Positions 12,987 through 28,187 of a stretch of DNA of 39,942 bases are shown in pieces. The stretch spans positions 1-39,942 of the forward strand of contig CAMDKQ010000006.1 of assembly GCA_945901095.1 (NCBI GenBank). Direction: 5' to 3'. Position numbers and translations under genes: made by a program. The stretch is from Bifidobacterium breve (GTDB lineage Bacteria > Actinomycetota > Actinomycetes > S36-B12). Numbering within the stretch: position 1 is the first letter of the stretch; each line of letters begins with the position of its first letter. The notes below the pieces were generated by a model, which worked only from the letters and a program-made list of their open reading frames with translations, was not told where the DNA came from and searched no databases.

Positions 12987-13628
12987 ATGGTGACGATCGC
13001 GGGACGAGCGTTCCTCGTCCTTGATGACCATGAGTTGGTCCTTGAGGCAATCGGCCAGCGGTTACGGGTCGATTTCCCCGGTTGCACGATCATCTACTCG
13101 GGGGGCTCGCTCAAGGATGCGGTGAATGCAACGCGCACGGCGCACTGCGACTGTGCCATCGTCGACCTTGACCTTGGCGACGGCGCAACGGTTGCCGAAC
13201 TCGTGAGCTCGTTCACATTGCATGGGATCCCAGTGGTTGTCGTGAGTGCTCTCGGTCGGCCAGAGGTCATCAAGGCCGCTCTGGCTGTCGACGTGAGTGC
13301 GTTCGTGACGAAGAGGTCGAGTGCGACGTTCCTTACGACAGCGATCAAGGAAGTACTCAAGGGCGGGACTTGGTTTCCAGCCGATATGGCAGGTGTGCTT
13401 CTTCAGGAATCTGGCAGCGTTGACCTGTCAGGTCAAGAGAGGCGAGCCTTGACCCTGTATGCCTCCGGACTCACGCTCGACATGGTCGCCCGACGAATGG
13501 ATGTCAGTCCGAACACGGCGAAGCACTACATCGACCGGGTACGGTCGAAATACACGGCCGCGGGTATTGCATCGCGAACGAAGATGGAACTCAACACCGT
13601 GGCGAGGAATGAGGGGATGCTCCCTTAG
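12987..13628 (+). CDS. NarL/FixJ-type response regulator without adjacent kinase
   Basis: A 213-residue protein. Receiver domain 7-125: acidic pair D13-D14, phospho-acceptor D60 (AIVDLDLGDG), S87 and K109 all present, so it should be phosphorylatable. LuxR-type HTH about 147-200 (LSGQERRALTLYASGLTLDMVARRM, then SPNTAKHYIDRVRSKY). The ATG at 12987 has a good TGGAGGT 8 nt upstream. No histidine kinase adjoins it: the gene follows one exported protein and two lipoproteins. The nearest kinases are 10 kb away in the tandem pair that has its own regulator. A role controlling envelope genes, including its own operon, is a guess from context. Confidence 0.85.
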   Translation: MVTIAGRAFLVLDDHELVLEAIGQRLRVDFPGCTIIYSGGSLKDAVNATRTAHCDCAIVDLDLGDGATVAELVSSFTLHGIPVVVVSALGRPEVIKAALAVDVSAFVTKRSSATFLTTAIKEVLKGGTWFPADMAGVLLQESGSVDLSGQERRALTLYASGLTLDMVARRMDVSPNTAKHYIDRVRSKYTAAGIASRTKMELNTVARNEGMLP

Positions 13629-23645: not shown

Positions 23646-25496
23646 GTGGTGAATTACGAGGCGAAGGGGGAACATCGCGCGGCGCCTGATCGATCGTCGG
23701 TCCGCGAAGCCATCGCCGGTGAATGGGCGACCTCTCCGACTCTCTGGCTCCTCGCCTTCCCCTTCATTGTGCTCATTCAGCAGGCTCGACTACAACTGTT
23801 CTCCGAATGGGTGACTCCGCAACTTCTCGGCATCGCCTTCCTTGGACAGGTCGCGGCGCTCCTCGTGCTCCTAGCGGCGCGACGCGTACGGGTCCGAGTA
23901 CCTGATGCAGAACCCCGGAGCCTCGTCGCAGTGATTGGGATTTGGCTCATTGCAGGGGGAGTAGCGGGCGCTGTCAGCGGATGGCTCGTAGGCCTGTTCG
24001 ATATCTTTCAGGTGCCCGGTCAGGTCCTCAGGGCCATGCTGTCGATGGCCATGACAACGGTGCTCACCTACCTACTCGTCTCCTTCACCATCGGCGTGGT
24101 TCGTGGCCACCGGGTGGAGGTTGTCCGCCTCCGTGCCTATCGCGATGTACTTGTGCTTCGCAGTCAAGAGTCGGGTGCCTACCTCGAGGACCAGCAGCGA
24201 CTTTTGCGCACGGCGCTGGACGACGACGTCCTTCCTGCATTCCGCGACCTCGTCGAGCGCGTCGAGGCCCTGAGCTTCCGACCACTCCAAGAGGAGCTTG
24301 TGCAGTTGCGATTGCGCGTCATCACCACCTCGGAGAAGTTGGTCGGTCGCGTGAAGGAGGGTATCGACGATGCGGTCCAACAGCAGCGAACGAATCGACT
24401 GCGAGGTATCGCTCAGGGTAGGCGGACCGATGGGGGATGGCGGAGCATCATCCTAAATACGTCGGTCACTCCACGTATCGGTTGCCTCATCGTTATCGCC
24501 TTCGCGTTTGTGGAACGACTTCGCGGCTGCGCCACAACCTCGGTTGTCATGGCAATTGGGATGGTGATCGTGGTTCTCGCCGGGGCCACCGTGCGCCGGT
24601 ACACCTCCGGTGAGCCACCGGGCACTCGCCTAGCCGTGGGCGTGGGAACAATCGGAACAATCCTTCTGGTCTTCTGGGCGGTGACCCGCCTTGAGATTGC
24701 CGGCTGCACGTGGACAGGATCAACCGCGGTCATCGTCACATCCGGCTGTGCACTCGTAGGCGCACTCGCATTCGCAGGGGTGTCGCTTGAGGCGGATCGT
24801 CAGTTGAGGCTCATGCAGGACGAACTTCGTGACGCGAATGATGCATCCCAAGCCGCAATCGCAGTCCTGAACGAGACTGGCCGCACACTCCGCGATCAGG
24901 TCTCGCATGTGCTGAACGGGGTACTTCAGGGAAGGCTCGCCGCGGTGTCGATTGCACTCCAAGCCCACATTGACGACCTCGGTCGGGGTGGGCACCCGAG
25001 CACCGAGCGACTCGTTGAGCAAGTGACAGCGCTACTGCACCTCGCAGACCAAGACATCGCCGAGATCGTCACCGAGCCGGTTCAACCGCCTCGAATCGAC
25101 GAGGCCTTACACCGACTTCGAAGCCGCTGGGCGGGACTCCTCACCGTCGGATGGGATATCGAACCTGCGGCGCAAGCGCTGCTTGACGATGACATCATCC
25201 TGCTCCAATGGGCGAACGAAGTTATTGACCATGCGGTGAGAAACTCGAGCAGGCACGGCGGGGCGGCAGGCCTCACCATCTTGGTGAGCGCCTCGGGGGT
25301 GGTGATCGGGTGGCTCAGAATTCGAATACAGGACAACGGATTCGGACCAGGGCCTGGTGAGGTGCTGGGTGGATCGGGTGCACGATTGGTCACTTCACGT
25401 CAAGGCACCTGGGTGCTACGTGGCCGACCGGTCGGAGGAGCTGAGCTCACCGTGGATCTGCCTGGAACGCGATGGTCGAGCGCTCACTTTGCCTAA
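23646..25496 (+). CDS. membrane histidine-kinase-like protein, probably a pseudokinase
   Basis: A 616-residue protein. Membrane bundle 1 is about 30-150. A cytoplasmic helical block follows at about 155-245, including LEDQQRLLRTALDDDVLPAF. Membrane bundle 2 is about 270-380, then a DHp-like helix pair (about 395-475) and a HATPase domain (about 510-606). Compared with the downstream paralogue, the phospho-acceptor position reads N424 (VLNGVLQGRL against VLHGSVQSRL) and the N-box Glu is H529 (HAVRNSSRHG against EAVTNASRHG). The DxGxG motif (D563) remains. H421 lies one helical turn before N424. It may regulate or heterodimerise with the second protein. The GTG start has no clear RBS. Confidence 0.85.
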   Translation: MVNYEAKGEHRAAPDRSSVREAIAGEWATSPTLWLLAFPFIVLIQQARLQLFSEWVTPQLLGIAFLGQVAALLVLLAARRVRVRVPDAEPRSLVAVIGIWLIAGGVAGAVSGWLVGLFDIFQVPGQVLRAMLSMAMTTVLTYLLVSFTIGVVRGHRVEVVRLRAYRDVLVLRSQESGAYLEDQQRLLRTALDDDVLPAFRDLVERVEALSFRPLQEELVQLRLRVITTSEKLVGRVKEGIDDAVQQQRTNRLRGIAQGRRTDGGWRSIILNTSVTPRIGCLIVIAFAFVERLRGCATTSVVMAIGMVIVVLAGATVRRYTSGEPPGTRLAVGVGTIGTILLVFWAVTRLEIAGCTWTGSTAVIVTSGCALVGALAFAGVSLEADRQLRLMQDELRDANDASQAAIAVLNETGRTLRDQVSHVLNGVLQGRLAAVSIALQAHIDDLGRGGHPSTERLVEQVTALLHLADQDIAEIVTEPVQPPRIDEALHRLRSRWAGLLTVGWDIEPAAQALLDDDIILLQWANEVIDHAVRNSSRHGGAAGLTILVSASGVVIGWLRIRIQDNGFGPGPGEVLGGSGARLVTSRQGTWVLRGRPVGGAELTVDLPGTRWSSAHFA

Positions 25497-25569
25497 AATT
25501 CTCCGCACTTCTCGCGGACCGAGGGCCACTGCGTCGTAGGCTCGTGCGGGGGGATAGCTGGAGGTTGCG

Positions 25570-27375
25570 GTGAACATGGCGGCGGTCGAGTACTCCTGGC
25601 GTGATGCGCTGAGGAGTCGTTGGTCGACGTCACCCCTGATGTGGCTTGTGGCTGCTCCCGTGCAGATCTGCGGAATCGCCATCCGAAACTTCCCCCTCCA
25701 TCAGGACCGTGCAGCGATCATCGTTGTGATCGCTGTCGTCGCAGAACTTGCGGTGCTGCTCCTGCTCATCTTGGTGGCTGGGCAGCGCTCGCCGCGGGGC
25801 CGGTTCCCGTCAATGACCACCGGTCAGGTGATGTTCGTATGGTCCGGGTGTGGGGTCCTTCTTTCGCTCATCATGGAACTTGGCATCGACTTGCTCATCG
25901 GGGGAGGCGGTATTGGACTCGGTGGCCGACTGCTATGGACGGTTGGAAGCACACTTGCATTGTTCGGTGCCGCCACCATCGTTGGGGCGGGCGTCAGAGA
26001 GCGACAGGCTGACATCGAGCGCCTGCGCCGCGCGGATGATCACATCAACGAGCTCGGTGCCGCATCACAACGTTTCGCTGCGGATCAGCGACTACTCCTC
26101 GCGGATGCACTCGACGCAGTGGTGATTCCGGCCCTCAAGCAACTTGCGGAAGAGGCAGAGGAACTCAATCTGGCTACCGATAGCGACCTAGAGCCGCTGC
26201 GGTCTCGGGTCGCTTTTTACTCCGAGACGATCATCCGGTCCCTCAGCCGGGAGGTATCGGGCACTGCTCCGCAGTGGCCGGAGCGAACGCCTGCGACTGA
26301 TACGAGAAGGGGCTTTACCCTTCGAGGGCTCCTAGACCTCTTCATGACGGCGAGGGTGCCGATACTTCCGTCAGCGGCCTTCATCGGCGTCATCCTGTGG
26401 GCCCAGATCGTCCCCTCATGCCTCGAGCGTGATGCGTTGGCGTTGGCGAGCGGCACGATTGTTGTCGTTATCGGCCAAATGATCTCCCGATCGCTGTTCC
26501 CTGGATCGCACCGGGGCACGGGGTTCGTCAACCTCGTGATCTATCCTGCGATCGGCGCTTCGTTCGTGTGGAGCGTTCGAACGCCAATCGTTGCCTGCGA
26601 ATGGGAGCGCTCAAACCCTCAATTGCTCGTCGTGGTCGGTATTGGGTTGACATGCTTGGCGCTGATCGCCATGGCGTTCGAGGTGACCAGACGTTCACGG
26701 GATGACGCCTTGTCGCTGGCTTCTCGCATTCGAGTTAGTGAGGCGATAGCGGCAGAGTTGGATCGTGCTGGTGCGCGAATGCGCGATCAGGTGTCGCTCG
26801 TGCTGCATGGTTCCGTCCAGAGTCGCCTGACCGCAGTAGGGCTCGCCCTGCAGGTGCACATCGATGAGGTGAGGTCTGGTGGACACCCCGATAAGCGACG
26901 ACTCCTCGCGCGCGTGACCATGCTGCTGGAACAGTCCGCGGCTGACGTGCAGTCGGTGTTTGCCGAGGAGCCGCCCCCCGCGAGTGTCGAGAAGCAAATA
27001 CAGGACATACGAACTCGGTGGCTCGGACTCATTGACATTTCCTGGGGGATGTCAATGAGGGCCGCGGAGGTTCTCGGTGCCGATCCCGAATGTGCTGCTT
27101 GGGTTTTGGAGATCCTTGGCGAGGCAGTCACGAATGCCAGCCGGCACGGTGAGGCAGGCTCGCTCCAACTGCGAATTGACGTCGACCATGGGACGGGCAC
27201 GATGCTCATCATTAGCGCGACCGATGATGGCATTGGGCCGTCGAATGACCTTCGTGAAGGTCTCGGTACCCATCGAATCAGGGCCCGCGGCGGATCCTGG
27301 GCACTTGAAGCTGAGCAAGAGGGTGGGGCTCGCATGACCGCGATGCTCCCAATCCGCCAAGGTAGAGGAGCCTGA
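25570..27375 (+). CDS. membrane sensor histidine kinase (NarL-partner type)
   Basis: A 601-residue paralogue of the upstream protein with the same layout: W-S-T-S-P-L-M-W near residue 18, a first membrane bundle (about 22-142), a helical block containing ADQRLLLADALDAVVIPALK (about 145-230), a second bundle (about 262-372), a DHp and a HATPase domain. Key residues are intact: H413 (VLHGSVQSRL), N-box E518/N522 (EAVTNASRHG), D552-x-G-x-G (TDDGIGPS) and a G-rich lid (REGLGTHRI). No extracellular sensor domain is visible, so the signal is probably sensed in the membrane. It has GGAGG before the GTG at 25570 and is followed by a response regulator gene after 146 nt. Confidence 0.88.
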   Translation: MNMAAVEYSWRDALRSRWSTSPLMWLVAAPVQICGIAIRNFPLHQDRAAIIVVIAVVAELAVLLLLILVAGQRSPRGRFPSMTTGQVMFVWSGCGVLLSLIMELGIDLLIGGGGIGLGGRLLWTVGSTLALFGAATIVGAGVRERQADIERLRRADDHINELGAASQRFAADQRLLLADALDAVVIPALKQLAEEAEELNLATDSDLEPLRSRVAFYSETIIRSLSREVSGTAPQWPERTPATDTRRGFTLRGLLDLFMTARVPILPSAAFIGVILWAQIVPSCLERDALALASGTIVVVIGQMISRSLFPGSHRGTGFVNLVIYPAIGASFVWSVRTPIVACEWERSNPQLLVVVGIGLTCLALIAMAFEVTRRSRDDALSLASRIRVSEAIAAELDRAGARMRDQVSLVLHGSVQSRLTAVGLALQVHIDEVRSGGHPDKRRLLARVTMLLEQSAADVQSVFAEEPPPASVEKQIQDIRTRWLGLIDISWGMSMRAAEVLGADPECAAWVLEILGEAVTNASRHGEAGSLQLRIDVDHGTGTMLIISATDDGIGPSNDLREGLGTHRIRARGGSWALEAEQEGGARMTAMLPIRQGRGA

Positions 27376-27521: not shown

Positions 27522-28187
27522 GTGACTGAAGGCATCCCGGGATTTCGAACGAAGGTCCTCGTCGTTGAGGACGAGGAGTTCACGCGCACCATTCTCGCGG
27601 ACTCACTGGCCGCCAGCGGGATGACCGTCCGGTCTGCCATCTCGGTTGCCGAGGCCCTCGAGATCCTGCTCGAATTCGAGCCGAATGCCGTGGTGACGGA
27701 TCTTCACCTTGGTCCGGGCCCTGACGGGGTGGACCTGCTCGAGCGTCTGAACCGTGATTTGCCGTGGATTGGGCAGGTTGTACTCACCTCGCATACGTCC
27801 GTCCAGGTCGCGCTGGGCATCAACCGGCGGATTCCTGAGCGGGCGGTCTACCTCGTGAAGTCACGCATCACTTCGCTGGCAGATGTCGAGGATGCGATCT
27901 TCGATTCGATCACGCGCACGTCCGCGGAAGACTCGATCTCTCTGGAACCAGCCGAGGGGCGAATTGAGCTGAGCGCCTCGCAGGGCGAGATCCTTCGTCT
28001 CATGTCCGAGGGCCTTTCGAACGCGGCCATCGCGGCCCGGCGCGAGACAACCCTGCGATCGACGGAAAGCCTGGTCGCACGCACGTTCGCGACACTCGGA
28101 CTGTCTAATGACCCTAATGTGAATGCCCGGGTTCTCGCCGTTCGGATGTGGCTGCAGGGCCAGGTGGTCGTTCGCGGGCGAAGCTGA
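27522..28187 (+). CDS. LuxR-type response regulator
   Basis: A 221-residue protein. The receiver domain (10-125) has acids E16-D17, phospho-acceptor D60 (VVTDLHLGPGPDG), T89/S90 and K113 (YLVKSRI). The LHLGPGPDG loop after the acceptor is longer than usual. A LuxR-type HTH lies at about 150-205 (LSASQGEILRLMSEGLSNAAIAARRETT). The natural input is the kinase just upstream. The GTG at 27522 has AAAGGGGGG about 9 nt before it. It ends convergently with the hydrolase gene 38 nt away. Confidence 0.88.
   Translation: MTEGIPGFRTKVLVVEDEEFTRTILADSLAASGMTVRSAISVAEALEILLEFEPNAVVTDLHLGPGPDGVDLLERLNRDLPWIGQVVLTSHTSVQVALGINRRIPERAVYLVKSRITSLADVEDAIFDSITRTSAEDSISLEPAEGRIELSASQGEILRLMSEGLSNAAIAARRETTLRSTESLVARTFATLGLSNDPNVNARVLAVRMWLQGQVVVRGRS

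Follow-up and report, generated by a model that had tools for sequence, protein, structure and literature searches.

The window (the whole stretch of 39,942 nucleotides that was analysed; GC content, 63%) carries on its forward strand two kinase genes, encoding kinase A and kinase B, and a response regulator gene. A gap of 73 bp separates kinase A from kinase B, and the gap from kinase B to the regulator is 146 bp. The features are listed below, where G002 and G004 are related genomes of the same genus.

23646..25496, + strand: kinase A, putative histidine pseudokinase of 616 aa; intact open reading frame with eight predicted membrane helices, a first cytoplasmic hairpin, DHp, and CA
Residues about 415-480 of kinase A, + strand: DHp, with N424 where the acceptor His is expected
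Residues about 516-607 of kinase A, + strand: CA, with H529 for the N-box Glu and DxGxG kept
24906..24908, + strand: H421 of kinase A (codon CAT), proposed shifted acceptor; Leu in the G002 and G004 orthologues
24915..24917, + strand: N424 of kinase A (codon AAC), phospho-acceptor position
24927..24929, + strand: Q428 of kinase A, acceptor+4, possible phosphatase residue
25230..25232, + strand: H529 of kinase A (codon CAT), replacing the N-box Glu
25570..27375, + strand: kinase B, canonical paralogue of 601 aa; intact open reading frame with acceptor H413 and N-box E518
27522..28187, + strand: response regulator with a receiver (E16/D17, D60, and K113, read from the sequence) and a weak LuxR/GerE-like HTH

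A BLASTP comparison indicated a paralogous relationship between the two kinases (30% over 463 aa, 162 bits, E = 3e-47), and both were modelled as eight membrane helices followed by DHp and CA, in agreement with the tandem of membrane kinases with a common layout described in the sequence-only reading. The residues named in that reading were also found as described: the acceptor and N-box positions are replaced in A and intact in B, and the ATP-site DxGxG is retained in A (D563-N-G565-F-G567) as it is in B (D552-D-G554-I-G556). The regulator is canonical. Pfam and NCBIfam searches of the window gave only weak HATPase matches for the two kinases. A second receiver/LuxR-type regulator is encoded at positions 12987-13628 of the window; no kinase of the A/B family adjoins it, and a homologue is located at the start of locus L067 of the genome G001.

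The AlphaFold2 models of A and B (mean pLDDT of 84.6 and 86.8, respectively), in which membrane helices were assigned by eye from model and sequence, show about four membrane helices leading into a helical hairpin, a unit that occurs twice; the second hairpin is the DHp, and the CA comes after it. The DHp-CA part of the A model is confident, and A is predicted to retain this fold. The two halves of the kinase are alike (hhalign probability 95%, E = 3e-8; reversed controls, about 4-5%), and the hairpins alone scored 19.6 compared with at most 11.9 in 20 shuffles. This likeness suggests that kinases of the A/B family are internally duplicated, with four membrane helices and a hairpin occurring twice. 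Across the family, the first hairpin resembles a DHp having Asp or other residues at the place of the His. Profile matches of the CA were 3zxo (2e-15), 4gt8 (3e-8), and DesK (about 1e-7), the nearest solved CAs being those of DevS, DosT, VraS, and DesK; the best fold matches of A were DesK and also DivL (4q20). Pfam HisKA_3 (PF07730) was matched by 1 of 36 family members at E < 0.1. The family accords with HPK7/HisKA_3 in its CA but not in its DHp, which as a rule has neither the HisKA_3 match nor Asp after the acceptor.

Orthologues were compared among five draft genomes of the genus (the window genome and G001 to G004), some of which are quite incomplete; MAGs of the genus (L098, L099, and L100) measure 3.0-3.7 Mb where fairly complete. 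The A-B pair was present in all five, and the frame of A was open in every case, the G002 copy being cut by a contig end. The A orthologues of G003, G001, and G002 (partial) shared 81%, 66%, and about 52% identity with window A, respectively. Asn occupied the acceptor position of A in four of the five genomes, encoded by AAC every time, and each Asn-bearing A was located directly upstream of a His-bearing B. At the N-box, A had His in the window, G003, and G001, and Asp in G002. The sequence-only reading had expected consistent loss of both His and Glu among orthologues of a maintained pseudokinase; three A orthologues carry Asn, but the G004 orthologue, on the deepest branch, keeps the acceptor His, although its N-box Glu is replaced by Asp.

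The family was surveyed in 83 stretches (the window plus 82 loci). The acceptor could be read in 88 of its kinases and was His in 84; the only four without it were window A and three A orthologues. Since the same codon recurs in three other genomes and only A orthologues depart from an otherwise universal His, chance or an assembly error at N424 was ruled out. In contrast, the N-box Glu was also missing in 8 of 83 His-bearing family kinases, so that its loss alone is weak evidence, and the notion that it proves inactivity was rejected. A signature-peptide scan for A across 84,980 species genomes matched only the same three relatives; diverged forms would escape such patterns. Directly tandem kinases were confined to this genus among the order-level matches listed, as read by eye. 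One related kinase, at positions 4800-5782 of L138 (G103), is apparently split by a frameshift between DHp and CA.

The sequence-only reading had offered H421 as a shifted acceptor, at which A would autophosphorylate. The His codon CAT is found at this place in the window, G003, and G001. However, the equivalent residue is Leu in the A of G002, where the acceptor is already Asn, and five family kinases with His at the H421 place also bear the normal acceptor. Phosphorylation at H421 is therefore not credible.

In a maximum likelihood tree of 34 family members, the A clade (support 98/96) and the B clade (96/89) were sisters (99/98); of the two G004 kinases, the first fell in the A clade and the second in the B clade. 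Judging from this tree, the A-B pair is the product of a single ancient duplication. Because the G004 copy belongs to the A clade and yet has His, the duplication preceded acceptor loss. By parsimony, Glu was lost after the duplication and His was then lost once, and G004 likely represents an intermediate in which His is still present.

Ka/Ks values were calculated by the Nei-Gojobori method with our own script, comparing the window with G003 and G001. The whole-gene value of A was 0.26-0.29 (0.26 for G003 and 0.28 for G001). The loss of two catalytic residues might suggest a decaying duplicate without function; however, the values above, together with a frame open in five genomes and a nearly frozen DHp, make this highly improbable, and the interpretation of A as a pseudogene was rejected. 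A is maintained by selection as a protein and shows no decay. Its DHp gave Ka/Ks values of 0.054 (G003) and 0.063 (G001), compared with 0.31 and 0.24, respectively, for the DHp of B. Changed sites in A numbered 3 of 66 and 5 of 66 in the DHp versus 113 of 550 and 207 of 549 elsewhere (Fisher p = 7e-4 and 2e-7), and the comparison of changed sites between the DHp of A and that of B gave p = 0.21 and 0.016. The His-less DHp is thus the part of A most guarded by selection, which points to a binding role, namely dimerisation, regulator docking, or phosphatase action.

Alternatively, A could act as a homodimer that, independently of B, binds or dephosphorylates the shared regulator as a decoy or dedicated phosphatase. 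The constrained DHp contains a Gln at acceptor+4 that is common to 81 of the 88 family kinases, including every A copy, and may be a phosphatase residue. Known phosphatase motifs are E/DxxT/N and DxxxQ, and the phosphatase residue of NarX-type and HisKA kinases lies in the same stretch of the DHp (PMC3510030). In ChrS, however, the acceptor is H186 and the Gln is Q191, that is, at +5 (PMC9491836), and 83 of 88 family kinases have Gly immediately after the acceptor. With the Gln one residue off the HisKA_3 place and Gly where DxxxQ has an acidic residue, phosphatase chemistry is not readable from the sequence. In addition, the maintenance of A in tandem with B suggests joint action, and we regard the homodimer as unlikely.

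The ATP site of A is largely preserved. A keeps N533 and D563xGxG, and GxG is present in three A orthologues, with GSA in G002; these residues make nucleotide binding by A plausible. It is conceivable that the CA of A binds ATP and phosphorylates His413 of B in trans, as a mirror image of FasB/FasC. The retained residues and the purifying selection acting on the CA (Ka/Ks of 0.28-0.34) would suit such a reciprocal arrangement, but the N-box Glu is gone from the four Asn-bearing A copies and G002 has departed from GxG, which leaves it very unlikely.

Relatives of the window regulator adjoin most single kinases of the family. Outside the genus, the usual arrangement is a single kinase next to one regulator, in most cases immediately downstream of it; in the genus, both kinases stand ahead of the regulator. 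An orthologue of the regulator was found in all five genomes, with 76-94% identity in the four others. From this association, A and B appear to belong with the regulator. Two kinases and one regulator occur at one locus in the window, G002, G003, and G004. In G003, the regulator lies about 1.2 kb from the kinases with an extra gene between them, and in G001 its orthologue starts another contig, apart from the kinases; the regulator and the kinases thus need not form one operon. The extra gene of G003 (L066:6018-7168, between kinase B and the regulator) encodes an exported-looking repeat protein with repeats like 'VGRVVRLNANGTHDTAFTTN..'. A related gene follows position 15121 of L067 in G001, downstream of B, where the window has only 146 bp.

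The proposal of the sequence-only reading that an active kinase and a pseudokinase act on one regulator is consistent with the maintenance of A without an acceptor, the canonical residues of B, and the association of both with the regulator; it does not extend to G004, whose A has His. Since A lacks His and is nevertheless kept intact across related species, it is probably a regulatory partner of an active sensor and not a kinase. Our main reading, to which we assign a probability of about 0.6, is that A is a conserved histidine pseudokinase derived from tandem duplication that serves as a regulatory partner of B, likely via DHp pairing, and tunes B and the regulator. A membrane sensor kinase would have been duplicated in tandem, and A would then have lost its acceptor. 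A would pair with B through the DHp helices, dock the same response regulator, or do both, and would feed a sensory signal of its own into B. As A has no usual His for phosphate, an A-B dimer would hold only one acceptor, His413 of B. A might bias the pair toward the unphosphorylated or phosphatase state until its signal changes. That A, with the family Gln at acceptor+4, lowers output until its signal is sensed is a guess as to sign, and we hold it tentatively, at less than even odds. We have shown which residues A lost, that these losses are conserved, that purifying selection acts on A, and in which order the events took place; we infer the A-B dimer, the shared regulator, and this sign. 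The DHp is the part in which A and B are most alike (42-48% identity), but single kinases of other genera are nearly equal in this respect (36-42%), and the similarity was set aside as a heterodimer signal. The membrane parts are only 16-19% identical, so that shared dimerisation is not assured.

A stricter form of this partnership, in which A and B constitute an obligate split sensor kinase, with A giving input and possibly an ATP-site function, only B having the acceptor, and the five genomes preserving the steps of the conversion, seems quite unlikely. If true, the genomes would record duplication, Glu loss, and His loss in turn.

The kinases belong to an uncharacterised, expanded, membrane-bound family that is barely recognised by Pfam, and the pseudokinase/kinase tandem is maintained across a genus represented by draft genomes only. 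The pair is well suited to examining what role a kinase duplicate takes after acceptor loss. To our knowledge, only a small number of natural histidine pseudokinases have been investigated, the best studied being DivL of Caulobacter; our literature search on histidine pseudokinases found little or nothing.

DivL is a pseudo-histidine kinase and a partner of CckA and DivK (PMC4211667). According to the sections of that paper drawn on here, its acceptor His is replaced (Tyr550), its other kinase boxes are largely kept, and residues near the lost acceptor are conserved, as in A; it also regulates another kinase, as proposed for A. In contrast, DivL carries PAS sensors and interacts with DivK in its phosphorylated form, and a tandem origin beside the partner kinase, as in A-B, is not described in those sections. 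A lies outside the DivL family: its acceptor position holds Asn instead of Tyr, it has membrane helices, and Pfam gave no PAS match. The FasB/FasC/FasA locus of group A Streptococcus likewise encodes two sensor-kinase-like membrane proteins and one regulator, the arrangement of the four loci above; FasB and FasC form a heterodimer in two-hybrid analysis, and one has been proposed to be a pseudokinase (PMC12675982). By its description, FasC keeps His and its CA is dispensable (PMC12675982), whereas A is the opposite, having lost His and mostly kept its ATP site. HrrS and a pseudokinase variant of ChrS from Corynebacterium are similar in being actinobacterial paralogous kinases with a native heterodimer, in which the DHp of the inactive partner matters; however, the ChrS variant arose from a laboratory-evolved CA frameshift and A from natural acceptor loss (PMC9491836). 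DesK, DevS, DosT, and VraS (HPK7, HisKA_3-type) have the closest solved CAs by sequence, DesK being the best fold match, but HisKA_3 kinases have Asp after the acceptor where the A/B family has Gly, and the A/B family carries four more membrane helices and a hairpin. The A-B pair thus represents a variant, in an uncharacterised kinase family, of a theme known from DivL/CckA, FasB/FasC, and RetS/GacS.
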